The notes under the pieces were generated by a model. That model had not been told where the DNA came from. It saw only the letters and a list, made by a program, of their open reading frames with translations, and did no database searches. From the NCBI RefSeq assembly GCF_000013445.1, contig NC_007796.1, forward strand, positions 780,936 through 844,935: a DNA stretch of 64,000 nucleotides, written 5' to 3'. The DNA comes from Methanospirillum hungatei JF-1 (GTDB taxonomy: Archaea; Halobacteriota; Methanomicrobia; Methanomicrobiales; Methanospirillaceae). A program made the position numbers and the translations under genes. Positions 46,592 to 63,492 of the stretch are shown one piece after another (positions within the stretch are counted from its first letter, which is position 1; each line of letters starts with the position of its first letter).

Positions 46592-49500
46592 GTGATAAAC
46601 AAAGAGGCGAATGTTCATGAATCGTTATCGGATTTTATTCTGCATAAACAGATTGGTCTCATGAATAGGGGACAGGAATGTGTGGCACGTGAACGCTCTG
46701 AATTACATGCTACCCTGAATTATTGCCGGAGGAAAAAGATGGAAAATATCCCGAATCAGGAAGGACAATGCTGGATTGATTATCTGCTTACCCGGATAAC
46801 TGATCTTATCAAAATTCAAGAGTATGAACGTGCTCTCCCTATAGCAGAGCAGGCTCTTTTAATGCTGCCTGACAATCCAGATCTCATCTATCTGGCTTCA
46901 ACCATCTATCAAAATCTTAATAAATTCGTAAAGCAGCTTCGTTTACTTGAAAGATTACGCGATATCAGACCTTTTGACCAGGATAGACGATCAGCTCTTG
47001 GCAGAAGTCTCATGTTCCAGGGGTATTATTATTCTGCTCTTTCAGTGATGAGTCATTTTGACATGATGTCAAACGAACTGGCAGGGTATAACAAGGTATT
47101 CATGCATTATTGCAAGGCATGTATTGGGGATACACAATCAGTTATCGAGTACTGTGACTGTTGTTTTGAAGATTATCAGGATGAGCCCGATGCAGCCAGC
47201 TTTCTTGCGATCATTCGTGCCCTGAAAGTTATGTCTCTTATTCAGAATCAGGAGAATGAAGCTGCTAATAGTCTTGCTTGTTCGATCGATGAGGAATTTG
47301 ACAAGACGCTATTTGTGGCTTATGCCAAAGGAATTGCAGCCAGAGAAAATAATAATCTTGCTGCGGCTGAAAGGTTCCTCCGGCTTGCATGCACGAGCAA
47401 TCAACGAGATATGCGGGCGAGGAAAGAACTGGCTGATCTTCTTTCCGTGCTTGGACACCATGATGCAGCAGCTAATATTCGAAAGGAGATAACCGGTTTT
47501 TTTGGTCCTTTTGATGATCATGAAAATCCACTATACAGAGCAAAAGAATTCATAAAATCAGGAAATTTTGATGAAGCTGAGAGATATCTCTTATGGGTTC
47601 ATGAGCAGCAACCTGATCGGAATGACCTCATTCTTCCCATGATATCATTGTGCAATTTCACCGACCGGTATGATTCAGTTATTTCATATGCTGATTCTCT
47701 TGAAACAACTCCATACGCCTGGAAATCAGGATATCTGAAGGCATCTGCATATTATTCTGCTGGTGATGCCATGGGAGCAATCCGGTGCCTTATAGCCGCC
47801 ATAGCCCGGGATCGAATATTTTCGCTCATTACTATACTGAATATGAGGATTGAAGGCTATTTCAGAGATCCGGATATTTTTGATCCTGACGGAATGGCTT
47901 TGATGATATTTTGCACTGATGGATATGATTCGGCTATTCCTCTCTTTGAAATGTTAGTCGATACAAATCCGGATATTTTAGAATACCGTGCATTCCTGGT
48001 ATATTGCTACATTCTGGAAGATAAAAATACAGATGCTGCTATCTGTTCAGAACGATTATCTATGTCAGATGATCCGGATCTGTGTATGGTCCGGGCCCTT
48101 GCCCTCAGAGCGGCTGGTTGTCTGGATGAGGCTAAACAGGTGACGGAGAAGACCAGAAAGAGGTATCCGGATTATCTACCTGCCCTGAATATGTATGTCC
48201 GTATTTTGGTTGATCTGGATCTGTATAGATCCGCATATTTCGAACTTCTCTCGTATCAGGATGTTCTTCTGTCAGAAGCCCCTCTCATGGAGGTTTTCAT
48301 CCGGTGCCTTATTCATTCTGGAGATTTCCTTGAAGCTGCTACTTCAGCCTTTCGTCTCATCATGGCCAATCCTGACAGGCCTTTGGAATTTTTCTTTCTG
48401 GCACAGACCTTTATGCATGATGGCTATACTGATGCTGCATTGTATGCTATTCGTGAGAGTTTTCGATTTAGCGGGTTTAATTCAAAGACATTGCGGCTGT
48501 ATGTCAAGCTTCTGCTTCAGGCAGCATCTCCTCAGGAAGCCTCGATTTTTTTCTCTGAATGTGATGATTATTTCCCCGAACAGTCCTGAAGTCCGGTATC
48601 TGAAGAACGCAGCTGCACTTCTCTCGGGTGAGAATTCTTCTGACGAATCTGTTGAAGAACGTGTGGTCCGGATATTTCAGACTGAAAACGGAATTTTTCG
48701 CGGTTATATTGGTGAATATAGAAATGCAGTCGGAATGCTCACAGAAGAGATAAAGAAGAATCCTGCTGATTATTCGCTTCGTGTTGCGTTAGCACGGGTC
48801 CTATTTGAACTCAGGCAGGACAGAGAAGGATTTCATCAGTTATCAATGGCGATAGAGAACGGAGAGGAAGACAATGAAACTCTGGAATTGATGAATGCAG
48901 CATTGAATGCACTCAGTCTAAACTGTTTCATTGATGAGTATAAGCGGATATCTCAGGGTGATGTGGTAAGGTTTGCTAAACTGGTGTATGAGCAGGCTGT
49001 CCGCCAGAACAGGTTCGGAGTTAGGAGACAGGCGATTGACGTCTGCAGGTTCCTGACAGGTCTTTCATCATCAGATCCAGCAGTTCTGAGTATCAAGGCC
49101 GATGCATGTCGTATACTCGGAGATCTTGAGGAGGATCCGGAGAGGTATGAACAGGGGATAGCACTATACAATGAGCTGCTTTCAGATGATCCTGATAATG
49201 CCCGGTACCTGGCATATAAAGGGCTTCTTTTAGATAATCTTTCCAGGTATGAGGAAGCTGAGGATGTTCTCGTCCGTGCTCTGGAGCTTAATCCCGATTC
49301 GGGTGTTGCAAATTCAGCTCTGTGTTGGTGTCTGGCAGCTATCGGACGATACCAGGAAGCGTTATTGTATGGCAACAAAGCCACGATTCAAATCCCTGAT
49401 GATTGGGGAGCCTGGAACAATCGGGGACTTGCTAAACTAGGACTTGAAGATTTTGAAGGGGCGGTATCAGATTTCAAACAGGCAATCAGGTGTCATCCGG

Positions 49501-49700
49501 GAGAGCTAATCCCGAGGAATAATCTCTGTGAGGCTCTCCTCTCTCTTGATGATGCTGATGCCCAGGATGCTTTTGTGGATCTTTTGTTCAGATTCGGGTA
49601 CATGGCATTTCCTGTTAAAGAGGTGGAGGAGTCATGGAGTGTTCCGGGTTTGAACCGGGATCACAGAACCATTACCGGCTATATGGATGGGTATTGGTGA
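46592..49700 (+). pseudogene. giant TPR protein broken by a one-base frameshift
   Basis: The 5' frame (46592-48589) and the 3' frame (open to 49700) are one protein of about 1,035 residues made of TPR-like helical pairs throughout (for example ARYLAYKGLLLDNLSRYEEA and WNNRGLAKLGLEDFEGAVSDF). The frames join if one C is removed from CCCC at 48574-48577, giving DYFPNSPEVRYLKN. Start GTG 46592 or ATG 46661. TPR scaffolds bind partner peptides; the next genes (mini-protein, vWA) begin 36 bases later, so they may have formed one complex. Slippage or a sequencing error at the C-run are alternatives to true inactivation. Confidence 0.8.
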
Positions 49701-49736: not shown

Positions 49737-49871
49737 ATGGATATATTTGGATTCTGGCTGCATCAGGCGTTAGGTCTGCATCTGCAGGAGGAAGAAGAAA
49801 GAAAGGAGAAGGAGAGAAAGAAGCGAGAGGAAGAAGAGAAGAAGATGAGGTGGTACCATGACAAACGATGA
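49737..49871 (+). CDS. 44-residue charged mini-protein coupled to the vWA gene
   Basis: ATG 49737 follows an excellent Shine-Dalgarno (GAGGAGGTGAT). The product begins MDIFGFWLHQALGLHLQ, an amphipathic or membrane-touching helix, then a Glu/Lys/Arg-only coiled-coil-like stretch, and ends WYHDKR. Its stop overlaps the vWA start by 14 bases, so the two are translationally coupled. No family known to me. The codons are dominated by GAA/GAG/AAG, so the possibility of a low-complexity leader peptide remains. Confidence 0.6.
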   Translation: MDIFGFWLHQALGLHLQEEEERKEKERKKREEEEKKMRWYHDKR

Positions 49872-50580
49872 TAAAACAAACGGGAAGAATATGGAAGAAT
49901 ATAAAGCGACTCCTGTATCTGATGCAGGGGGCGAAATGGGCCGGACGAATGCAGATGAAGATGTCAGGCTTGATATCACGGTTATTCTGGACCGGTCAGG
50001 TTCCATGGATCCCATCTGTGATGACGCTATTGGATCATTTAATGCATTTCTTAAAGCCAGGAAGGATAGCAATCCAAATTCACTCATGACAGTTGTGCTC
50101 TTTGATGATGAGTACCTTGTCAGAGAAGTGGGTGTGCCAATTCAAGCAGTTCAACCATTGAATGACCGGACATATGTTCCACGGGGGAACACTGCTCTTT
50201 TTGATGCTATCGGAAAGACAATAAGGACGATTGAGGAGCGAACACATGAGGATGAAGAGGTGATGGTTGCCATACTTACCGACGGGCAGGAGAATGCATC
50301 GGTTGAGTATACTCTGGAACAAATCCGATCCCTCATTATAGAGAAAGAAGCAAAAGACTGGGACTTTGTGTATCTCTCAGCAGATCCCTCGGCTTTTGAT
50401 GATGGGAAAGCTATGGGATTTCAGGCATCCAAGATGGCAATGTACAAAAAAGAAGAGATGCATGAGGCATATGCTCACATGGATGAGATGCTTGCAATGA
50501 AATTATCCAAGGCCAGGGATATTAAAATTATGAAACGACGAATGAGGGGAAATGTGGAAGAGGATAAAATGTACCAGTAG
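49858..50580 (+). CDS. von Willebrand factor A domain protein
   Basis: 240 residues. After an acidic 37-residue lead the vWA fold starts with DITVILDRSGSM (MIDAS DxSGS at 45-49). The second MIDAS element is GNTALFDAIG (Thr near 105) and the third AILTDGQENAS (Asp near 132), so metal binding is complete. It has no signal peptide and is presumably cytoplasmic, binding a partner through the metal site. Neighbours suggest the TPR protein or the tubulin-like module. Confidence 0.88.
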   Translation: MTNDDKTNGKNMEEYKATPVSDAGGEMGRTNADEDVRLDITVILDRSGSMDPICDDAIGSFNAFLKARKDSNPNSLMTVVLFDDEYLVREVGVPIQAVQPLNDRTYVPRGNTALFDAIGKTIRTIEERTHEDEEVMVAILTDGQENASVEYTLEQIRSLIIEKEAKDWDFVYLSADPSAFDDGKAMGFQASKMAMYKKEEMHEAYAHMDEMLAMKLSKARDIKIMKRRMRGNVEEDKMYQ

Positions 50581-51036: not shown

Positions 51037-51810
51037 ATGCCCAGAGCTTTCAACAAGGATATGAAAACTGCAATTATTGCCCCAATAGGAACAAGCCCCC
51101 CGGTCATTACTGCAGGTATTGACGCACTTGATGAACCGGTATCTGATCTAGTGCTCCTCGCGACAAAGGATGAACAGGTATTAGCCGGCTGTGATGTCGT
51201 AAAACTTGGACTTAAATCCAGATACCCCCGAATCAGGGTTCATGTAGAGCTGCTTCCGTTTGATGATATCAGTTCAGATGTTGAAAATCTCACATTCATG
51301 GCAATTGCAGCACGTGTGATTAAGAAAGAACGTGAAAGTTATGGGTGTGAGCGTATTCTGCTCAATGTGGCCGGCGGAAGAAAGAACATGTGTATCACTC
51401 TTGCACTCCTGGGGCAACTTCTTAATGTGGATGGAGTGTATCATATTGTGAACCATGAGGTAAAACTCTTCAATCAACACCTGGAACGAATGAGACCGAC
51501 GATGATGAGATTGTTCCGGGCTGAAAAAGAAGAGGACAAAATTATGATATATGCAGATAACCGGGAGATGTTTGAGTACATCCTGTATCCTCCAAAGAAT
51601 GAATATGAGTTGATCCGAATTCCAACACTTCCCTATCCTGTCTCGTATATCAGTTCCCTCTTAAGCCGGGTGGTTTTTGATCCGTATATGTTAAATGAAG
51701 AGGATTGTTCTCTTCTTCTTCATCATGGAATTCTTGAGCGTCAGGGGAATAATCTGTATATTTCCGATTATGGAGCAAAATTTTTAGATGTCCTTGTTGG
51801 AAAGGGGTAA
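51037..51810 (+). CDS. CARF-domain protein with C-terminal winged helix
   Basis: 257 residues. Residues 10-155 form a Rossmann-like CARF domain: AIIAPIGTSPPVITAGIDAL, the strand VSDLVLLAT, and the ligand motif LLNVAGGRKNM (110-118), the counterpart of the N-x-T-G-G-T-K motif that holds cyclic oligoadenylate. Residues 190-257 look like a winged helix (SYISSLLSRVV, LLLHHGILERQGNNLYISDYG). There is no HEPN or nuclease motif. It resembles CARF-wHTH regulators such as Csa3, or a stand-alone ring nuclease-like CARF. ATG 51061 is a possible shorter start. Convergent with the next gene, overlapping by 27 bases. Confidence 0.75.
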   Translation: MPRAFNKDMKTAIIAPIGTSPPVITAGIDALDEPVSDLVLLATKDEQVLAGCDVVKLGLKSRYPRIRVHVELLPFDDISSDVENLTFMAIAARVIKKERESYGCERILLNVAGGRKNMCITLALLGQLLNVDGVYHIVNHEVKLFNQHLERMRPTMMRLFRAEKEEDKIMIYADNREMFEYILYPPKNEYELIRIPTLPYPVSYISSLLSRVVFDPYMLNEEDCSLLLHHGILERQGNNLYISDYGAKFLDVLVGKG

Positions 51811-52572: not shown

Positions 52573-53436
52573 ATGTTTATGTATTGGAGAAAAGTAATGG
52601 CTAATATGCTTAAACTTCATAAAATTCAGGGCGGACTTATACTGGGATTACTGCTTTTATTTTTATGTATTCCTGCATCAGCAGCCATAGATCTGACGTC
52701 ATCATCTGTCTTTGATTCCGGGGGTTTAACACCTGCTTTTGGCGAAGAGATTCAGACAACAATTATTATCAAATCAGGTCCTCATGACGTTGAAGACCTG
52801 AAAATTGTTTTTTTAGAGATGGATGGGCTTATTGATCCTCTTTCTTTTGGAAAATCGCTGTTTCCAATCGAGACACAAGCTAATATTACGCTCGATAATA
52901 ATGTTCTTTTCTGTGACCATCTGAAAGCAGGAGAGGAACTGACCATAACGTTTCATGTATATCCGAAGAGTACTCAAAAGTCAATGATTACCCCTGTTCA
53001 GATGCAGATCTCCTATATTCAACTTGGACAAAAAATATCAGAACAAAAAACGGTTACAACTGCTATGGACCAGTCTGCGTGGCATACTCTGCAAACCACC
53101 CGGACCAGTACAAATAATACTGGGATTCTTCTTATTCTTGCCGCTCTTGGAATTGCGATTGTGATTATACTCATCCTCATTGTGAAGATGAAGGACATGA
53201 ATGTGCAGGATACCTCAAAGAAGATAGTTTCCCGTGATGTGAGTATTCTGAAAGAGATAAAAAGCAGACTTGACGGGATTGAAAACCCATCCACCAGTAT
53301 TATTGAACTGCAACATTATGTAAAGTCTGAACTGGATAAGATTATGAATAATAAAATTGGAACTGATTTGCCTGAAGATGGTAGCAGAAAGATAGAAAAT
53401 CCAGATAAACCAAAGAAGACCGGGGATAAATTCTGA
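52573..53436 (+). CDS. single-pass membrane protein with cytoplasmic coiled-coil tail
   Basis: 287 residues (or 279 from ATG 52597, MANMLKLHK). A signal peptide (to about 38, ending ASAAID) is followed by a beta-rich outer domain of S-layer/COG1361 type. One transmembrane helix (about 184-205) leads to a charged cytoplasmic tail (SILKEIKSRLDGIENPSTSIIELQHYVKSEL) that can form a coiled coil. It ends 8 bases before the tubulin-like gene, so it is a good candidate for the membrane anchor of that filament. Confidence 0.7.
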   Translation: MFMYWRKVMANMLKLHKIQGGLILGLLLLFLCIPASAAIDLTSSSVFDSGGLTPAFGEEIQTTIIIKSGPHDVEDLKIVFLEMDGLIDPLSFGKSLFPIETQANITLDNNVLFCDHLKAGEELTITFHVYPKSTQKSMITPVQMQISYIQLGQKISEQKTVTTAMDQSAWHTLQTTRTSTNNTGILLILAALGIAIVIILILIVKMKDMNVQDTSKKIVSRDVSILKEIKSRLDGIENPSTSIIELQHYVKSELDKIMNNKIGTDLPEDGSRKIENPDKPKKTGDKF

Positions 53437-53444
53437 GGGATATT

Positions 53445-55643
53445 ATGAGTGATAAGGATTTATTTGAGGAGTCAGGTATCATCCCAACCCTTGCAATTGG
53501 TGTCGGGATGGGGGGAGTGAGTGTTGTCAAGGAGTTCATCTCTTTTGTTGAGAAGAATGGAATCATTGATAATTACCGGTTTGTTGCAATTGATTCAAAT
53601 ATTGATGATCTGAACAGGATCATAGAGTTTGCACCAAATACCTCGAAAATTGCGATTACCGATCACCAGTACGATGTGATGAATCTGAAAAAAAATTGTC
53701 CATATCTGCATAAATGGGTCGTTATGCAAAAGGGAGGTGCTCTTCAGGAGCGGGTGTATGGACGATTTCTGCTTGATCTTCACAAGGAAGAGATAACAAG
53801 GACGATTACTGCCCATATACATGATCTCTCAAATCTCTGGAAAGAGAAGGAAGGTGGCGGTGAGAAGCGGGGTCACATTGCAATCTGGATTATTCATTCT
53901 CTGGGTGGGGGAACAGGTAGTGGATCTTTCCCGGCTCTCGCCATCTATCTGCAGAAGATAGTAAAGGAAATCCTGGGTAATAAAGGAATTACTCCGCATA
54001 TCTATGGGGTTGGTATTCTTCCTTCCGGGACAAATATTACCGACATCTCAACTGCAACGTTCACAAAGAGATATTTTGCTAATTCCTTTGCTGCTCTTGA
54101 GGAGGTTAAGGTTCTGGCAGCAGCATCAGATGTTGCCCCTGTAACCCTGAAACTTCCGTTTCATGGTGAACCTATTCAGGTTACGGAACGGCCTTTTGAA
54201 CGGTATTTCCTGTTCGGTATTGATGAAGAGCTGACGACGAAGCTTCGGAAGGAGAAGGGGGAGATGGTTGATGATTATCTCTCCCATGCAAATAAGATTA
54301 TTGTAACTATGATGTTTGCTCTTCCCCAGTATCCAAAAGGTTTGGAGAATCTATGGAAGGATGTTCCAAGTCCTTTTGCCTCTTTTGGAGAAAGCGAACT
54401 GAATATTCCTATTCGGTTGGTGAAATATCTTGCAGGGGAAAATGATCTTCTCGGTCCTGTTATTGATGAGAATGAATCGGTGAAGGCAGAATTGCGTAAG
54501 CTGGTCATTGATGCGATGAAAGAATTTTTGCGGAACTTGAATGAGTCATTTCTTGAGGACCGGGCGTTAGCAGTGTTCCAGGAGTATCGTCTTTTGGGTC
54601 TGGCTTATTTTGTGGGGAAATTGCAGAATCAGATCAATAAACTTCAGATTAATATTCAGTCAGAATATGAGGAAGAACTGGATACCTGGTGGGAGACGCT
54701 TAGAAGTGAGAGCTGGTCATGTGACCAGATTGAGCGGGCAGGGGTTGTTGGATTAGAAGAGAAACATAATCTGATTGTTGAGCTTTTTAATTCCCGAATT
54801 GAGGAACTTGTGAGAAAATTAGACTCACTTCTGGTCAGTCCTTTGAAAAAGCCGGATCTTCGGGAACGAAAGGAGAAGATTGAGAAGATTTTGCATGATC
54901 TTGAAGTTTTAAAGGTAAAAACTCTGAAAGTCAGAACATTAAAGCAATATGTTGATACGAAGATAGGGGAGAAACTTTCTCTTCAAAACCGTGATTCGAA
55001 GGAGAAGATCCTGGGTGTTGCATCTATCGTTACCTTTGCGAGGAAGAAGGATGCATACCGCCAGAATGTCTTGAAAAAACGGCTTGGTCTGTCTGGAAGC
55101 GGTCGGGTTTTAAATCCTGCTCTTTCTGAAGATATTATGAACAGCGTCTCTTTAGTGCGAGATATCAATGTTGCCCATATGAAGAGTCTGGCTGATTATT
55201 TCCAGACTCTAAAGTTTTCACAGAAAGATGTGGATAAAATTATAAAGAATAGGATTGAGCAGTCCCGTGACCGGCACCTTTCGGTTGCAATCGGTTCAGG
55301 GGGGGAGATTCTTACAAATCCTCGCGAAGAACTATTTATTTTATGTAATATGCTTCATGAGAGTGCACTTGGAGATAATATTGCATTTGCATCAATGAAA
55401 GTGGTGAAGATACCAAGTCAGACATATAATGATGAGAAAGTTGAGTTTATTGACTATACTCTCAATCTTTCAATTGAAGATGTGAAAGAGTACAATATTC
55501 GAAAAGCAGAGTATGTGCAGAATAAATTGAAAGAAAAAACCGATATTGCCGGGCCTATTGGAACCATCTTTGCATACCCGGAGTGGTTCCCGAAAGATCC
55601 TCTTGTTCAGGAGGTCTATCTGGATATCGGTTCTGAATCTTAA
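53445..55643 (+). CDS. tubulin/FtsZ-superfamily GTPase (Tubulin_2-like)
   Basis: 732 residues. T1 loop GVGMGGV (19-25), then the tubulin signature GGGTGSG (154-160) followed by SFPALAIYLQKI. The core continues with IYGVGILPSGTNI. Residues from about 390 are long charged helices (coiled coil) and the C-terminus returns to mixed fold. It is about twice the length of FtsZ and lacks the FtsZ C-terminal peptide, as in the FtsZ-like families proposed for membrane remodelling in archaea and bacteria. Ribosome site GAGGGATAT before ATG 53445. It should bind GTP and polymerise; that is family knowledge. Confidence 0.88.
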   Translation: MSDKDLFEESGIIPTLAIGVGMGGVSVVKEFISFVEKNGIIDNYRFVAIDSNIDDLNRIIEFAPNTSKIAITDHQYDVMNLKKNCPYLHKWVVMQKGGALQERVYGRFLLDLHKEEITRTITAHIHDLSNLWKEKEGGGEKRGHIAIWIIHSLGGGTGSGSFPALAIYLQKIVKEILGNKGITPHIYGVGILPSGTNITDISTATFTKRYFANSFAALEEVKVLAAASDVAPVTLKLPFHGEPIQVTERPFERYFLFGIDEELTTKLRKEKGEMVDDYLSHANKIIVTMMFALPQYPKGLENLWKDVPSPFASFGESELNIPIRLVKYLAGENDLLGPVIDENESVKAELRKLVIDAMKEFLRNLNESFLEDRALAVFQEYRLLGLAYFVGKLQNQINKLQINIQSEYEEELDTWWETLRSESWSCDQIERAGVVGLEEKHNLIVELFNSRIEELVRKLDSLLVSPLKKPDLRERKEKIEKILHDLEVLKVKTLKVRTLKQYVDTKIGEKLSLQNRDSKEKILGVASIVTFARKKDAYRQNVLKKRLGLSGSGRVLNPALSEDIMNSVSLVRDINVAHMKSLADYFQTLKFSQKDVDKIIKNRIEQSRDRHLSVAIGSGGEILTNPREELFILCNMLHESALGDNIAFASMKVVKIPSQTYNDEKVEFIDYTLNLSIEDVKEYNIRKAEYVQNKLKEKTDIAGPIGTIFAYPEWFPKDPLVQEVYLDIGSES

Positions 55644-55713: not shown

Positions 55714-57396
55714 ATGATTAAACGGGCACTTTTATTTGGTGGGACAGACGGGCATGGCATTATTATGACTGGTCTTTCCGAACGGGCTTTAAAGGGAGAA
55801 GGGTTTGAGGTGATTACTGTATGTTCGTATATCCGGCCATTACCGGAGAAGGAACAGGAATATGCAGATTATGGGACTCATATACCATGTTTTTTCTGGC
55901 AGTATACGTTTCCCTATTATATGAAGAATTTTGTTTCCGATTATTCCATTGTTGTTATTGTTGATATTCCCTTTCCTGAGCCTGACAACCGGTGCCCGTC
56001 TTTATCTGTTGATCAGATTGTTGAGGAGATGAAATCAGCACTCGAGATTGTTCCGAGAATTGTCCTGATTGATCATCATAAGAACTCATTTACGCATTAT
56101 GGAAAGGTTTCACAGGTTGGTGCGGAGGTTGTAATATCTTCATCAGCCATGTTTACTCATTACGGGAAACCGGATAAGTTTACTCATAAATGGGGGAGAT
56201 ATGGAGCAATTTGTGATAGGGATGATGCTGTTCTTCCGGTAACTGAAGAGGAAGAGATTTTTGCTGCACGAATAGATGCTGCGAAAACTGATATTGAAGG
56301 GTGTCTTAATGCAATACGGCAGGATGATTTTTCATTTTTTAACCATTTCTCTCCGGATATTCCAAAGCCTGATACGGTGATGGAGTATGATTCATTTCTG
56401 TATATCCCCAGATTAGCGGAAGGGTTTGGCTATAAACAATTGGATCAGGCATGCAGGCAGTATAGAAAGGATTATGCTCTTGGAGTTAGTTATCAGAACC
56501 CTGATAACCCAGTAATCCTTCTAACGACGTATTGGAAATCAGATAACCTACCGGTGGCCCTGTTGCTTGGTATGACCAGATTTCGTGGGCATGTTACTGC
56601 TCCGAATATTGATTTTTCTCATGAGATGGTCGACGATCTCATCTCGTTGTTATCTCATCCAGATAAGGGAGAGATCAAAGAAAGCGGACAGATTCTTTCT
56701 AATCAGTTCTACTCCTATGTTGCAAGGTTTTTAAGGCGGGTTGAGATTCCGTACTTTCTGACCCTGCATAAATGGGGGCATGTAGAGCATGTTATCGCGA
56801 ATGCACGGACGCTTGGGTCACTGTATGGTCTTTCAGATGAAGAACAGAAAATCCTTAACTGGGCCTGCCTTCTCCATGATATCGGGTATGGGATCGATCG
56901 TTCAATTTGTCCGGATTTTGACGAGATACACCGTCGCCATCATGAGTTTTCAGAACAGATGGTTCGTTCATGGGAAAAAGAGGGGTTGTTTTCCGGGTTT
57001 TTGAATCATGATGAGGTGAGTCTTATTGCTGATATGTGTCTGCGTCATCGGAAGAAGATGGAACTTCCAGGCAAGGAGAGAGATCATCTGTATATTTTGC
57101 TCAGGGTTGCCGATGGGATGGATAATGATTACCGAAGGGCTCAGAAAAATGATGAAGGGACACTCTATAGTGAATTGGATAAGCATTTAAATGAAGATTC
57201 CAGGCGTGAGTGGGAGAGCCATCAGGCGGTTTTAGGGCTTTCTCTGAATATAAGGGATGATGTTCTGACTTTTGTAATGATTGTTCGTGACCGGGAAAAG
57301 GCCTTCGTGAAAATTCAGGATCTGGAACGTGAGACTGAACCATTAAAACGGTATTATAAGATTCGGATAGAGATTATAGATATTACAGATGAGTAG
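55714..57396 (+). CDS. DHH-HD fused phosphodiesterase
   Basis: 560 residues. The N-terminal half is a DHH-type phosphoesterase: FGGTDGHGII near 8-17, IVDIPFPEPDN near 83-92, and VLIDHHKNS with Asp120-His121-His122. The C-terminal half (about 340-510) is an HD phosphohydrolase: KWGHVEHVI, CLLHDIGYG (His-Asp near 388), HRRHHEFS, LRHRKK and LRVADGMDND. DHH enzymes split pApA, c-di-AMP or short oligonucleotides, and HD domains split cyclic nucleotides or phosphate esters. It lies 11 bases before a CARF-HEPN gene, so a role in turning over the second messenger is plausible. The HD could be an unrelated dNTPase. Confidence 0.8.
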   Translation: MIKRALLFGGTDGHGIIMTGLSERALKGEGFEVITVCSYIRPLPEKEQEYADYGTHIPCFFWQYTFPYYMKNFVSDYSIVVIVDIPFPEPDNRCPSLSVDQIVEEMKSALEIVPRIVLIDHHKNSFTHYGKVSQVGAEVVISSSAMFTHYGKPDKFTHKWGRYGAICDRDDAVLPVTEEEEIFAARIDAAKTDIEGCLNAIRQDDFSFFNHFSPDIPKPDTVMEYDSFLYIPRLAEGFGYKQLDQACRQYRKDYALGVSYQNPDNPVILLTTYWKSDNLPVALLLGMTRFRGHVTAPNIDFSHEMVDDLISLLSHPDKGEIKESGQILSNQFYSYVARFLRRVEIPYFLTLHKWGHVEHVIANARTLGSLYGLSDEEQKILNWACLLHDIGYGIDRSICPDFDEIHRRHHEFSEQMVRSWEKEGLFSGFLNHDEVSLIADMCLRHRKKMELPGKERDHLYILLRVADGMDNDYRRAQKNDEGTLYSELDKHLNEDSRREWESHQAVLGLSLNIRDDVLTFVMIVRDREKAFVKIQDLERETEPLKRYYKIRIEIIDITDE

Positions 57397-57407
57397 AGGG
57401 AGATGAG

Positions 57408-58685
57408 ATGACAAAATTACTTTCTTTTGTCGGTACCGGGCAGTTATATGATACGATATATCGTCTGAATGGTGAGGAGTATCATACAGCTGTCGTTCAG
57501 GAGGCGTTATGCCGGTATTATAAGCCTGATGAGGTTGTGCTGTTTGTGACACGTGAGGCACGAAGCAGGAATCTTCCCATCATTGAGGCTGCGATTCCTT
57601 CTACTCCGATTACTATTGTGGATATCCCTGATGGGAAATGCGAAGATGAGATCTGGGATATCTTTTCAATAGTGACCGATTCGGTGCATGAGAATGATGA
57701 TATTATCTTTGATATCACACACGGGTTTCGATCCCTGCCGTTTATTGCCCTGCTTTCGATTGCGTATTTGAGGGAAATAAAACCCTTTTCACTGTCTGGT
57801 GTGGTGTATGGCGCGTTTGAGGCTCGTGAAACGATTCACCTGGAATCCGGGAAAGAGATTTCTCGGGCACCGGTCTTTGATCTGACCAGATTTGTGAGTA
57901 TTTTTGACTGGATGGCAGGGGTCAGGTCTTTTCTTCATCATGCCGATGCCGGGGTACTTGAGCAGATGGTTAACCAGATCTCTGATGAGGAGTTTTCACA
58001 AATCCAGAGCAGAAAAGGGACAAAACCGCTTATGGACCTGTTAGGGCCGATGTCAACGTATGCCGCGTCTGTACGGCTGTCACGACCGGTCGAGGCGATG
58101 AAGACTGCATATAGTATTCAGGAACGGTTCGAAGCTGCTACTGGAGCAATTAAAAAGCATACTCCGGTTCTGACGCCGCTTTTATCAAAGATATCAGAGA
58201 TAGAACATTTCGCGTTGCCGGAGCCTAATATCCTGACCGATGCTGTGATTCAAAAGCAGCGTGATCTTATTCAGGTTCAGCTTGAGATGGGGCTGTATCA
58301 GCAGGCGGTCACGCTGGGACGGGAATGGATGGTAACGGTACTGCTCTTTGCTGCAGGGGCCGGGGAAGAATGGCTGAAAAAAGAGACCCGAAATGAAGCG
58401 GAGAATTCACTCTCTGGTGCAGAGAAGGTACTGAGTACGCAGTCTAAAGCCCAGTCTCTTCGTAATGATAAGGAGAAACCCAGGTTCCTGGACTGGTTCT
58501 GTAGTCATGTTTCCTGGAAGGAGATGACCGGAATTTGGAGCAGGACCTCGCAGATGAGGAATGAACTGGCCCATTGCGGGATGAACCCAGAAAGCCTCAA
58601 AGTCCGGCAACTGCAAAAAAAGGTTGATAAATTTCCTGACGTTCTTGATAAGTTTTATGCTCTGATGATGGGATTACCGGGTTAA
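57408..58685 (+). CDS. csx1: CARF-HEPN ribonuclease, Csx1/TM1812 family
   Basis: 425 residues. CARF domain: MTKLLSFVGTG, VVLFVT, DIPDG and the conserved FDITHGFRSLPF (101-112). HEPN domain at the C-terminus with the RNase motif R-x4-H at 384-389 (RNELAH). The family binds cyclic oligoadenylate from Cas10 and then cleaves RNA. It is the last gene of the membrane protein, tubulin, DHH-HD row, with only 11 bases to the DHH-HD gene and its own Shine-Dalgarno (GAGGGAGATGAG). Confidence 0.92.
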   Translation: MTKLLSFVGTGQLYDTIYRLNGEEYHTAVVQEALCRYYKPDEVVLFVTREARSRNLPIIEAAIPSTPITIVDIPDGKCEDEIWDIFSIVTDSVHENDDIIFDITHGFRSLPFIALLSIAYLREIKPFSLSGVVYGAFEARETIHLESGKEISRAPVFDLTRFVSIFDWMAGVRSFLHHADAGVLEQMVNQISDEEFSQIQSRKGTKPLMDLLGPMSTYAASVRLSRPVEAMKTAYSIQERFEAATGAIKKHTPVLTPLLSKISEIEHFALPEPNILTDAVIQKQRDLIQVQLEMGLYQQAVTLGREWMVTVLLFAAGAGEEWLKKETRNEAENSLSGAEKVLSTQSKAQSLRNDKEKPRFLDWFCSHVSWKEMTGIWSRTSQMRNELAHCGMNPESLKVRQLQKKVDKFPDVLDKFYALMMGLPG

Positions 58686-58686
58686 T

Positions 58687-59940
58687 TCATAATTTGCTGA
58701 GTTCCTGATATACATTTTCGAGTTCTCCTGGTATTGCGAGTACGTTATTTTCAAGTGTTTTTGCATCTTTCCTGATTTCTCTCATGCCACAATGTGCCAG
58801 ATCATTTCTCACCCGGCTAATTTTCTGCCAGGTGTTAGCGATTTTTTCCCATCCGGTGATTTGTTCCAGCCTTCTTACCATTGGTGAGGACTTATAATTT
58901 TTTCGTTTCTTCCTGATGGTCAGAGCATGGAGTGCTTCTTCAGCATCGGTTCTGACGGTTTCTTTAAGCCAGGAGGAGAAGAGTCCCTGGTGGCAGATGA
59001 CTGCAGAGACCATCCATTCCCTGGCGAGTTCGGCGGCCTGCAGATATAGTCCCTTTTCCACCTGGTATGATATGATTGCCAGCTGGGATTCAAGGGTGCT
59101 CCAGGAGGGAGAGGAGGATCGGGTTTGTGCAAACGGGGGCATCTCATTTATTTTTTCTAGGACCGGATTTAAGGCAGGGAAGTCTGCATGTATCTTATTT
59201 CTGACATTGGCAAGGTGTTTCATGACTTCGATACCGGAATTTGCGGCTTCGATGGGGCGTGCAAGCTGTATGCCAGCGGTGAACTGGCGGAGAGAATCGG
59301 CAAGATGAGTAAGGGTTTCATATGGATCCGTATCAGGATAGGGGGATGAAATGGATCCAGGAATCCGGGATGCAGTCACCATGGCCTGCATGCCCCTTGC
59401 ATCAGCAAAGGAGACAAAGGATCTGACAGCCATCATCCAGTCAACAAGGGTGATGAATGAGGTGAGATCTGATATGGGTGATATTCTACGGGTCTGACCG
59501 GTGTGATCACAGAAATCTTCACCTGCTTCGTACGCTCCATACACGACTCCCCAAAGGGTTGCACCGGTTACTTCCCTGATGTATAGGGCGGTGAGGAATG
59601 CAAGGAAGGGCATAAACCGGTACGCATGGGTTATGTCAAGAAGGATTTCATCATCTGGGCCAACTGCATGAGATATTTTATCAAATATTTCCCAGAGTTC
59701 AGATTCCGTCCGACCATCCGGGATGTCAATGAGGGTGTGTGGATGTTCTGAGAGGCTGGTAATGACGGTGGAGAGATTATTTGTTTTGGCTTTTCCGGTG
59801 ACAAAGAGGGTTATCATGTCAGGATGGTAGAACTCTGCCAGTGCCTTTTGTATAACGGTAGTATCGCATAGAGATCCGTTAAGGGTGTATCTGGCTGGTT
59901 TTAATTCTCCGGTTCCGACAAAACTGAGACATTTCCGCAT
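58687..59940 (-). CDS. csx1: CARF-HEPN ribonuclease, second Csx1/TM1812 paralogue
   Basis: 417 residues, same architecture as the convergent neighbour and readily aligned with it: CLSFVGTGEL, VTGKAKTNNL, DIPDGRTE, DITHAYRFMPF and the HEPN motif RNDLAH (378-383). Stops are one base apart. Both HEPN sites are intact, so both are expected to be active; they may sense different ring sizes. Confidence 0.92.
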   Translation of the reverse strand: MRKCLSFVGTGELKPARYTLNGSLCDTTVIQKALAEFYHPDMITLFVTGKAKTNNLSTVITSLSEHPHTLIDIPDGRTESELWEIFDKISHAVGPDDEILLDITHAYRFMPFLAFLTALYIREVTGATLWGVVYGAYEAGEDFCDHTGQTRRISPISDLTSFITLVDWMMAVRSFVSFADARGMQAMVTASRIPGSISSPYPDTDPYETLTHLADSLRQFTAGIQLARPIEAANSGIEVMKHLANVRNKIHADFPALNPVLEKINEMPPFAQTRSSSPSWSTLESQLAIISYQVEKGLYLQAAELAREWMVSAVICHQGLFSSWLKETVRTDAEEALHALTIRKKRKNYKSSPMVRRLEQITGWEKIANTWQKISRVRNDLAHCGMREIRKDAKTLENNVLAIPGELENVYQELSKL

Positions 59941-60237: not shown

Positions 60238-62387
60238 GTTGCCATACCCTTCTATTTTCGGGTCACTTGCAACGCAGACCGCGACGAGGCCTGGGGCAGA
60301 CTGGAAAGTTGCCATACCCTTCTATTTTCGGGTCACTTGCAACTATTTCTCCTTCAAAACGTTTAATGTACTTATTCAGTTGCCATACCCTTCTATTTTC
60401 GGGTCACTTGCAACAGCAGATGACATAGTAAACAGAATCACTGAACTGGTTGCCATACCCTTCTATTTTCGGGTCACTTGCAACCTATTCCCCTGCACGA
60501 TTGAGAAACCCGGCGCATAGTTGCCATACCCTTCTATTTTCGGGTCACTTGCAACGACTCAAGTGCAAAGAAAGCAATCATAGAACTTCTGTTGCCATAC
60601 CCTTCTATTTTCGGGTCACTTGCAACTTTCATCCCATGCAAACAGGTGCCGGGCAATCAGTTGCCATACCCTTCTATTTTCGGGTCACTTGCAACTATCA
60701 GAATTCTGGAAAGCCGTCTCTCAAGAGCGTGTGGTTGCCATACCCTTCTATTTTCGGGTCACTTGCAACCCTGTCACGAGATGACGTGTCAGCCATGAAG
60801 TGGTTGCCATACCCTTCTATTTTCGGGTCACTTGCAACTATCAATTAACCTATGTTCTACTCTTCTGTATGTGTTGCCATACCCTTCTATTTTCGGGTCA
60901 CTTGCAACATGCGTGCCCGCACGCCTGCACGTTGCCACCTTGGTTGCCATACCCTTCTATTTTCGGGTCACTTGCAACTAACATTGCATTAGAACAACTC
61001 TACGTGGACATCGTTGCCATACCCTTCTATTTTCGGGTCACTTGCAACAAATAGCCCGTCGCCAGGCGATGGTATCACGAATGTTGCCATACCCTTCTAT
61101 TTTCGGGTCACTTGCAACTAACCGATTTCAGGTTACCTTTATAGCATATAACAAGTTGCCATACCCTTCTATTTTCGGGTCACTTGCAACATCTCGAATT
61201 ACAAGGTAGACCCATGGGGTCTATGTTGCCATACCCTTCTATTTTCGGGTCACTTGCAACCCAATACGTTGGTCACGTAAAGTACGGATGTGAGGTTGCC
61301 ATACCCTTCTATTTTCGGGTCACTTGCAACTACTTTTTCCGTAAAGGAGCTGCTTACAGAACTGGTTGCCATACCCTTCTATTTTCGGGTCACTTGCAAC
61401 AACTAAAAGAGGGCCCCCCTAAAATCTCTTAAAGTTGCCATACCCTTCTATTTTCGGGTCACTTGCAACAATCTATAGGGAAGGTAAATCTTTACCAGAT
61501 ACTGTTGCCATACCCTTCTATTTTCGGGTCACTTGCAACAAGGTTTCCATCCTCATAGAATGGAAACAAGCGGGTTGCCATACCCTTCTATTTTCGGGTC
61601 ACTTGCAACAGATGAGGTATTGGTGCTTAAAGGGCACCCGCTTGTTGCCATACCCTTCTATTTTCGGGTCACTTGCAACAGGAAGAGTCGAACAACAAAT
61701 TTCAAAAAATTGTAAGTTGCCATACCCTTCTATTTTCGGGTCACTTGCAACTGTGGTGACTTGAGTGGCACCACTATTAGCCGCAAGTTGCCATACCCTT
61801 CTATTTTCGGGTCACTTGCAACGGGGGCAGAGTTGCAGATGTTGATATTCACGCTGGTTGCCATACCCTTCTATTTTCGGGTCACTTGCAACGAGGACTT
61901 GAGTTGTCCCCTGTGCACAGTCGAAGTTGCCATACCCTTCTATTTTCGGGTCACTTGCAACAACTTCTCCAGCTTGTGCTCTATCTCTATATGATGGTTG
62001 CCATACCCTTCTATTTTCGGGTCACTTGCAACTCTCAAATGTAGTGCCCCTTCCCACAAGATTTATTGTTGCCATACCCTTCTATTTTCGGGTCACTTGC
62101 AACTGTACCGTCCTTCCATGCTGCAAATCATTAACAGGTTGCCATACCCTTCTATTTTCGGGTCACTTGCAACTCATAAGGTTGATCTCATGTTCTAACC
62201 AGGTTACGTTGCCATACCCTTCTATTTTCGGGTCACTTGCAACACCCCAAAATTCCATCTGAACGATAAATATTTTTTCGTTGCCATACCCTTCTATTTT
62301 CGGGTCACTTGCAACCGTGTAACCTAATTATCAGTCATTCAGTCTCACATTGTTGCCATACCCTTCTATTTTCGGGTCACTTGCAAC
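60238..62387 (-). CRISPR. CRISPR array, part 1 (31 repeats)
   Basis: 36-bp repeats beginning GTTGCCATAC and ending CACTTGCAAC (plus-strand view) with short inverted ends GTTGC/GCAAC. All 31 copies read identically. Spacers are 33-38 bases and all differ. The degenerate repeat at the left end suggests that side is the old, trailer end; with the purine-rich strand being minus, transcription is probably from right to left and the leader lies beyond the window. No cas effector, cas1/cas2 or cas6 gene is in the window; the adjacent CARF-HEPN genes suggest use by a type III system. Subtype is not assigned. Confidence 0.97.
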
Positions 62388-62395
62388 TAAAAATC

Positions 62396-63492
62396 GGTAG
62401 TGCCCTGTTAGCAAGCTGGTAATACTAAGTGCAAATAAAGTATTAAATTTTATGTACTAAAAATTAATATAAGTTTAGATATAATTATTTTCATGGTTGG
62501 AAAACGTGGTCCTATATTGATTACGTGTCAAAATCCGGATTGTACTTATTTTCAAATTGAAGATGGAAAGAATATTACTAAAAATGGGCATAATTCTGCA
62601 GGCAATCAACAGTACTATTGCCATCACTGTCGACGTTTTTTTATTGAAACTAAAAATACTCCTCTGTATGATTCTCGTTTACCACGAACTGCTGTTCTCA
62701 TAATTGCGAAACACTCGACTGAAAAAACTTCAATTCGAGGAGTATCTCGAGTTACCGGACACCATCGCGACACTATATCTCGATATTATCACTTAATCGG
62801 TGAACATGCTGAAAAACTCAACGATTATTTTATTCATGACATTTCCGCGGGGGATTGTGAGATGGATGAAATTTGGGAGTTTGTTCAAAAAAAAACAAGA
62901 ATCTCCTAACAACTGACTCTGAAGAATTAGGTGATTGTTGGTCCTATACTTGTTTTAAAAGGGATTCTGGATTATTTTTAGCATTTGAATCTGGAAAAAG
63001 AAATATTGATACTTGTGCAGATATGTTAGTTCGATTTTTTAACCGAATGGAACTTCCAACGCCAGAAAACAAAATATCGATTTTTACTGATGGAAACGTC
63101 CAATATAGCATTTGTTTACCTGAATTATATTGTGAGCCATGCTTGGATTATGGTCAGGTGATCAAAGTAAAAGAGAAGAATAAACTTGTTTATGTCATTC
63201 GAGAGAAAATTATGGGAAATCCAGATAGTAAAGCAATCTCTACCTCAGTCATTGAGGGCTACAATAATAAAATCAGACAACGATTGAGCCGTTTTGGAAG
63301 GAAAACTGCCTCTTTTTCAAAAAAACTCAATAGATTCATTTCAGCGCTAAATATCTTTCAATTTGTGCATAATTTTATCGAAGTAAAAAGTAGTCACAAG
63401 TCTCCAGCAATGTTAGAAAGTATTACTGATCATCTTTGGAATTGGAGTGAGTTTTTAAACTACCATGTTCAGTTCTAAAGGAGGCCAGTACC
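62396..63492 (+). mobile_element. IS1-family element, copy 2 (1,097 bp), inside the array
   Basis: Starts GGTAGTGCCC and ends GGCCAGTACC. Same length as copy 1 and identical encoded proteins. The 8-bp duplications flanking it are intact, so the insertion looks recent and has not rearranged. Confidence 0.93.
62493..63478 (+). CDS. IS1-family transposase (insAB, programmed -1 frameshift)
   Basis: Two overlapping frames: 62493-62909 (InsA-like, zinc finger and HTH) and 62873-63478 (catalytic). Nine A at 62887-62895 form the -1 slip site that would fuse them into a roughly 320-residue DDE enzyme. Protein text is identical to copy 1. Confidence 0.9.

Follow-up and report, generated by a model that had tools for sequence, protein, structure and literature searches.

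What might one protein chain that joins a DHH-type and an HD-type phosphodiesterase half be doing beside the genes of a type III CRISPR system? The question is raised by a gene of Methanospirillum hungatei JF-1 (G000; G111, G129 and similar labels denote other genomes of the class), which lies in the window analysed here, a stretch of 64,000 nucleotides of contig NC_007796.1 (positions 780,936 to 844,935). The initial annotation, arguing from gene position, proposed that one half opens or cuts a cyclic oligoadenylate (cOA) and the other finishes the linear product. We followed this proposal through the protein's active sites and predicted fold, its relatives in other genomes, and the neighbourhoods in which those relatives are found.

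The gene and its neighbours

The gene is an uninterrupted 560-aa open reading frame (ORF) at 55714-57396 of the window on the + strand, as given in the ORF list, and its description as a two-domain DHH-DHHA1/HD phosphohydrolase draws on Pfam, on an AlphaFold2 model with fold search and on seven full-length copies. On the same strand, it starts 70 bp after a tubulin-like GTPase gene (Tubulin_2, 53445-55643, +; PF13809 E 4.8e-21, GGGTGSG at residue 154) and ends 11 bp before a gene for a CARF-HEPN ribonuclease of the Csx1 type (CARF2, 57408-58685, +; TIGR02221, and PDLC01824 with E 5e-104). The tubulin-like gene is itself preceded, at a distance of 8 bp, by a gene for a membrane protein with one clear internal hydrophobic segment (52573-53436, +; hydropathy peak at residue 185), which has homologues at other loci. 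The CARF-HEPN gene that the initial annotation placed beside the DHH/HD gene is therefore confirmed, and profile search finds a second Csx1-type CARF-HEPN gene in convergent orientation (58687-59940, -; PDLC01824 E 8e-102). The ORFs of these two convergent paralogues are 1 bp apart, and the pair is preserved in G199 and G202.

Upstream of the membrane-protein gene, a Csx14/NE0113-type CARF and HTH protein (CARF5, 51037-51810, +; PF09623, PF24744, TIGR03642 at 161 bits, PDLC01906) is a putative Crn1-type ring nuclease or sensor; Csx14 is grouped with Crn1 in the available portion of a ring nuclease survey (PMC12409355). A Csx14/CARF5 and HTH-like gene was also seen divergently oriented just before the type III cas6 gene in G195 (by profile) and G134 (by sequence likeness), at loci L088 (6397-7155) and L091 (5667-6428), and this gene perhaps encodes a cOA-responsive regulator besides a putative ring nuclease. 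Downstream of the CARF-HEPN pair is a CRISPR array (60239-62262, +), a 24-mer of whose repeat was counted 38 times across the window.

Two halves, one with an unusual site

The HD half (residues 345-555; 56746-57378, +) scores above the Pfam cut-offs of both PF01966 (40.4 bits, cut-off 22) and the HD-CE family PF24391 (43.4 bits, cut-off 27). In an alignment of the seven full-length copies (A1), H356, H388, D389, H409, H445 and D467 are invariant in 7/7; the pair at residues 388-389, encoded by codons 56875-56880, is that of LLHDIGYG, and we take the six residues, by analogy, to be metal ligands. Profile and ligand set together place this half in the HD phosphohydrolase superfamily. HD-GYP proteins are marked by the motif HHExxxGxGYP, which occurs in none of these sequences; the GYP motif is absent, the window protein reading HDIGYG and most relatives HDLGN or HDVGN. 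Our literature search found no relevant paper on the function of HD-CE, and we therefore draw no function from this name.

The DHH-DHHA1-like half (residues 1-300; 55714-56613, +) was recognised by fold search. In the Pfam search the DHH profile PF01368 did not match the window protein, and it stayed below threshold in the G156 homologue (17.6 bits, cut-off 28.1); searching the PDB by sequence alone gave no match below E 0.03. Comparison by hhalign with conventional DHH proteins encoded in the M. hungatei JF-1 genome was weak (probabilities 37.6, 7.5 and 7.0, with 0.3 for an unrelated control), and the DHH assignment therefore depends on fold and motifs.

The AlphaFold2 model, built from six aligned sequences, has a mean pLDDT of 73.9 and a pTM of 0.78, with values below 50 at residues 274-301 and 316-352 and low confidence in the DHHA1 part. 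Structure prediction bore out both of the halves that had been read from motifs: residues 1-320 are DHH-DHHA1-like, with matches to RecJ/Cdc45 (7e15, Z 13.6), PAP phosphatase (8a8k, 12.6) and PggH (7d62, 10.0), and residues 345-558 match best to domain III of PPX/GppA (Z 14.2), then to HD-GYP and SAMHD1. GdpP is also among the fold matches. The model thus predicts a DHH-DHHA1 fold for residues 1-320; fold likeness by itself says nothing about function. Profile searches detected no CARF or SAVED domain in the protein, and no membrane segment is evident on a simple hydropathy scale (highest 19-residue value, 1.52).

Within the DHH half, D84, D120, H121 and D168 are invariant in A1. Motif III (D120, H121 and H122; 56071-56079, +), which forms part of LIDHH at residues 118-122, is kept in 6/7 copies and reads DHY in G111 (H122Y). 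Motif I, the segment FGGTDGHG at residues 8-15 (55735-55758, +), has GxDxH in place of the usual HxDxD in all seven full-length copies and in 8/8 sequences compared, counting G111, where D12N turns it into GxNxH. In the hhalign register, GGTDGHG is aligned to HIDADG of a conventional DHH protein from the M. hungatei JF-1 genome (a weak alignment, probability 37.6 and E 3.4e-4), so that the first His has become Gly and the second Asp has become His in every copy. The initial annotation had described intact DHH and HD sites sharing one 560-residue chain; this stands for the single ORF, for motif III and for the HD site, and fails for motif I. Judged from the aligned sequences, the DHH site is altered in the whole family, and that of G111 is probably impaired. 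Between G000 and G199, dN/dS is 0.15 for the DHH half and 0.14 for the HD half; purifying selection acts on both halves in this pair.

Distribution of the family

Full-length copies are present in seven of the 232 genomes of the class (G000, G199, G129, G156, G111, G178 and G195), and G202 carries a fragment of the gene at a contig end, which makes the host range of the family essentially Methanomicrobiales. Altogether, 33 class genomes gave matches, namely the seven full-length copies, the G202 fragment and 25 partial matches. Ten loci with partial matches were inspected. Nine encode other HD proteins; the match on the DHH side (L030) sits in an RNA polymerase gene and was dismissed as chance. 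At 1e-10, a search of the phylum returned 6 of 392 genomes, four with full-length copies and two with HD-only matches.

A scan of 84,980 species genomes, which requires a conserved peptide and may let distant members escape, gave 88 pattern matches and five relatives, all on methanogen contigs bar one labelled Deltaproteobacteria (UBA8936). Four of the five contigs correspond to those of G199, G129, G156 and G178, and the fifth (UBA8936) carries a gene near-identical to that of G156; the nearest named relative in the scan is an M. hungatei MAG, at 78% protein identity. The UBA8936 contig (L041) holds Card1 and a Csx16-DHH-HD gene whose DHH/HD part shares ~98.7% identity with the Methanolinea copy; the contig was probably misbinned. 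A viral origin was considered and rejected: a scan of IMG/VR with A1 produced 100 pattern matches, none of them a relative, and tblastn gave no match among 72,556 plasmid or 50,697 phage records. In a viral fold library, DHH, RecJ and HD proteins are among the best matches, none with such a two-domain build. The G129 copy (L032, 2578-4284) has no ATG, GTG or TTG start ahead of motif I; translation there probably begins at ATT, unless an A run was misassembled.

Linkage to type III loci

In G111, a CRISPR array is accompanied by the co-directional genes cas6-cmr1-cas10-cmr3-cmr4-cmr5-cmr6-csx16-DHH/HD, so that the DHH/HD gene is the last of a complete type III-B operon. Here cas10, csx16, and cmr1 and cmr6 (as RAMPs) were named by Pfam and the others read from sequence, and Cas10 retains GGDD. 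In G156, cmr5, cmr6 and Card1 (PF09002, PF23400) are followed by a 688-residue protein in which Csx16 (PF09652, E 2.4e-16), DHH and HD form a single chain, and the near-identical UBA8936 copy has the same fusion; Pfam finds no Csx16 domain in the window protein. The csx16 gene lies 77 bp upstream of the DHH/HD gene in G178 and 72 bp upstream in G195. In the latter genome the membrane-protein and tubulin genes lie downstream, and a cmr operon, Card1 and cas1-cas2 are ~16-26 kb off (Cas10 at ~22 kb, with CRISPR arrays between). G000 and G199 share the order membrane protein, tubulin, DHH/HD and two CARF-HEPN genes; in G000, Cas10 and its type III operon are ~23 kb from the DHH/HD gene, past CRISPR arrays, and the G199 contig ends in a cmr1-like fragment that was read from sequence. 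G129 has membrane protein, tubulin and DHH/HD, with a cmr operon and a CARF1-HEPN gene on a different contig.

These associations were also counted, over 232 genomes for DHH/HD and over 231 for tubulin, Csx16 and Cas10. Csx16 (PF09652, over cut-off) is present in 5/231 genomes, in four of which it lies directly upstream of, or is fused to, DHH/HD (loci L033-L036); it thus adjoins or is fused in four of the seven genomes with full-length copies, and PF09652 is absent from the other three, G000, G199 and G129. A Cas10 palm was found in five of the seven against 21 of the 231 overall, and the two genomes without a match are 67% and 87% complete. Hypergeometric probabilities, which ignore kinship, are 1.5e-6 for Csx16, 7e-5 for Cas10 and 2.4e-8 for tubulin. 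The Csx16-linked copies (G156, G111, G178 and G195) form one clade, with 46-67% identity by half; the four cases are therefore not independent and their true statistical weight is lower. CARF effectors are present in five of the seven genomes (Csx1 in G000 and G199, CARF1-HEPN in G129, Card1 in G156 and G195), and none was found in G111 or G178 with PDLC01824, PF09002, PDLC01032 and PDLC01802.

From these neighbourhoods, the DHH/HD gene appears to be an ancillary type III gene, encoded within type III loci or close to them in several genomes. Its connection to type III nucleotide signalling, first drawn from one gene position, has gained a broader footing because Csx16 is fused or adjacent in four of the seven and the G111 copy belongs to a full cmr operon. 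Co-occurrence with CARF genes, the absence of which the initial annotation had been prepared to count against its own proposal, was likewise observed.

The tubulin and membrane protein genes

A tubulin homologue (E < 1e-100) was found in 6/231 genomes, of which five also have a DHH/HD gene. The two genes share one cluster in four genomes and are on separate contigs in G178, and two different gene orders occur; G111 and G156 have the DHH/HD gene without tubulin. At every neighbourhood read, bar the short G178 contig, tubulin lies near CRISPR arrays, Csx16/Csx3 or CARF genes. The pair of membrane protein and Tubulin_2 (52573-55643) may form a module of its own in type III systems, as an effector or a scaffold. 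In CRISPR-linked vWA/transmembrane/tubulin systems (Altae-Tran et al. 2023, PMC10910872), as in the window, membrane and tubulin-like genes lie by CRISPR, and a vWA gene is present in the window too; unlike the present loci, those systems are described with no mention of DHH or Csx16 in the available main text.

A further tubulin neighbourhood was seen in G134 (L058, 3071-11921), which contains a CRISPR array, an NYN/PIN-like gene (read from sequence), Csx16, a Fic-like gene, Csx3, Csx3-AAA, a membrane protein and tubulin. Two ring nuclease families are thus adjacent there, together with a Fic protein, and this genome has no full DHH/HD gene.

Comparison with known systems

The initial annotation envisaged an off-switch unlike the known ones. 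That view is weakened: MAD and NrN are already known examples of DHH enzymes that switch off type III signalling, according to the available portions of the papers that describe them (PMC7854544, PMC7694759 and PMC10600005). MAD is a membrane-associated DHH-DHHA1 nuclease of Sulfolobus islandicus that degrades cOA (Zhao et al. 2020; PMC7854544, PMC7694759). The present protein resembles it in its archaeal origin, its DHH-DHHA1 build and its link with the removal of cOA, and differs in having no evident membrane segment, an extra HD half, motif I as GxDxH and a link to Csx16. NrN, a member of the DHH family that acts as SAM-AMP phosphodiesterase in CorA type III-B systems (PMC10600005), is similar in being a DHH phosphodiesterase of type III-B loci that has been proposed as an off-switch and is also known in fused form, with CorA. 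It differs in its substrate, which is SAM-AMP and not cA2-6 or pApA, and in its partner, CorA rather than Csx16; the available part of that paper does not mention an HD half.

Csx16 (PF09652) has been verified biochemically as a ring nuclease specific for cA4, and the survey that reports this counted 242 loci positive for ring nucleases, of which just 10 had two or more (PMC12409355, available portion). Csx16 shares an operon and, in one case, a polypeptide with DHH/HD; its fold is different, and it is a neighbour or fused domain. Since Csx16 opens the ring and multiple ring nucleases are rare, one would not first expect another ring opener next to Csx16, which weakens the idea that the DHH/HD protein itself opens the ring. 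The HD fold of residues 345-558 and the HD-CE profile score recall PPX/GppA domain III, HD-CE and HD-GYP proteins; unlike PPX/GppA, the protein has no actin-like domains, unlike HD-GYP it has no GYP motif, and its HD part is fused to a DHH half. The combination of DHH-DHHA1 and HD in one chain, the GxDxH motif I and the Csx16-DHH-HD protein are apparently new, as none was described in the literature searched, which was covered in part, by title and opening of the abstract.

A possible role in signal turnover and its alternatives

Although we hold it tentatively, the most likely role of the DHH/HD protein is, in our view, to process signal molecules, or the linear products that remain after ring opening. 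We favour this because the fold matches are to nucleotide and oligonucleotide phosphodiesterases (PAP phosphatase, PggH, GdpP), because MAD and NrN are precedents and Csx16 is a cA4 ring nuclease, because five of the seven genomes already have CARF effectors, and because of the Csx16 linkage in four of the five Csx16 genomes, the cmr context in G111 and G156, the co-occurrence with Cas10 and the invariant HD ligands. The type III linkage is read from gene order and the two folds from profiles and a model; the chemistry and the order of steps we infer as follows. Cas10 would make cA4, which Csx16 would cut to short linear adenylates, as shown for another Csx16 protein; this ring opener would be Csx16 in one clade of the family, and in Methanospirillum a Csx14/Crn1-type CARF protein perhaps takes its place. 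Since 2',3'-cyclic phosphates are among the substrates that HD enzymes can attack, the HD site, conserved throughout, might trim or remove the terminal (cyclic) phosphate or cleave the linear product. The DHH-DHHA1 half would bind the resulting short oligonucleotide and, in copies with a working site, release AMP.

Several observations weaken the turnover reading: G000, G199 and G129 keep the DHH/HD gene without Csx16; the damaged DHH site of G111 fits poorly with a conserved exonuclease step; PADLOC contains fusions of Csx16 to effectors, so that fusion is no proof of turnover; and NrN, itself a DHH enzyme from type III loci, is reported in the available part of its description to be inactive on cA2-cA6 and pApA (PMC10600005). 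For the G156 fusion and the split operons, one can imagine a complete sequence in which Csx16 opens cA4, the HD half removes the 2',3'-cyclic phosphate or splits a dinucleotide, and DHH-DHHA1 finishes to AMP; this specific scheme we consider unlikely. If true, it would mean that the alarm is fully recycled, beyond being silenced, and that a type III system owns a dedicated enzyme for linear products. The fate of the linear adenylates left by ring nucleases is, in our judgement, little studied, and some of them might still be active on effectors; with a DHH/HD enzyme and Csx16 encoded together, this fate can be tested in one operon.

In the main alternative, the DHH/HD protein would be a new type III effector that breaks down nucleotides or nucleic acid during infection, through its HD half and perhaps its DHH half as well, and that is limited or gated by the fused or neighbouring Csx16. 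In G111, csx16 and DHH/HD are the sole ancillary genes of a cmr operon whose Cas10 keeps GGDD, the four models applied to G111 (PDLC01824, PF09002, PDLC01032, PDLC01802), which do not cover all effector families, found no CARF effector, and no HD ligand varies among the copies, in contrast to the degenerate DHH site of this one; PADLOC also lists fusions of ring-nuclease domains, including Csx16, to effectors (CARF_HEPN_CSX16, CARF_CSX16_TM). However, five of the seven genomes already own a CARF effector, and with no CARF or SAVED domain detected, direct sensing by the unfused form would go unexplained; we regard an effector role as somewhat unlikely. Should it apply to G111, type III systems would have an effector that lacks a CARF domain. 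In both cases, a gene family that we did not find listed is added to type III signalling in methanogens. The protein might instead open the ring itself, as a ring nuclease of DHH or HD type; this would suit the three genomes without Csx16 and has parallels in MAD, a DHH-DHHA1 enzyme that degrades cOA (PMC7854544, PMC7694759), and in HD-GYP enzymes, which open cyclic dinucleotides according to the literature as available. We nevertheless find it decidedly unlikely, given Csx16 at four of the seven loci, the rarity of loci with more than one ring nuclease (10/242; PMC12409355), the unusual motif I and the Csx14-type CARF gene already in the G000 cluster.

Two further explanations place the protein outside this signalling. 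It could be a nucleotide-handling partner of the tubulin-like GTPase, its closeness to CRISPR arising through the tubulin-membrane module, as five of the six tubulin genomes also have the DHH/HD gene and the linkage survives two gene orders. G111 and G156, which hold DHH/HD without tubulin, stand against this, as does G134, where tubulin occurs with Csx16 and Csx3 and no full DHH/HD gene, pointing to type III signalling as the common factor; we think such a partnership very doubtful. A metabolic phosphohydrolase for the turnover of PAP, pApA, c-di-AMP or dNTPs, present in a defence island by chance, would agree with the fold matches to PAP phosphatase, GdpP and SAMHD1 and with the small size of the family. 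The recurrence of Csx16, cmr and CARF neighbours over five genera, together with a fusion, and the presence in 7/232 class genomes, unlike that of a core metabolic gene, make it highly improbable.

Other features of the window

Two long TPR ORFs of 665 and 501 aa occupy 46592-49700 in different frames and overlap at 48195-48589; they are possibly one frameshifted gene. The vWA gene follows them at 49858-50580. Near the other end of the window, an IS1-family transposase in two overlapping frames (62493-63478) interrupts the CRISPR array, which resumes beyond it.
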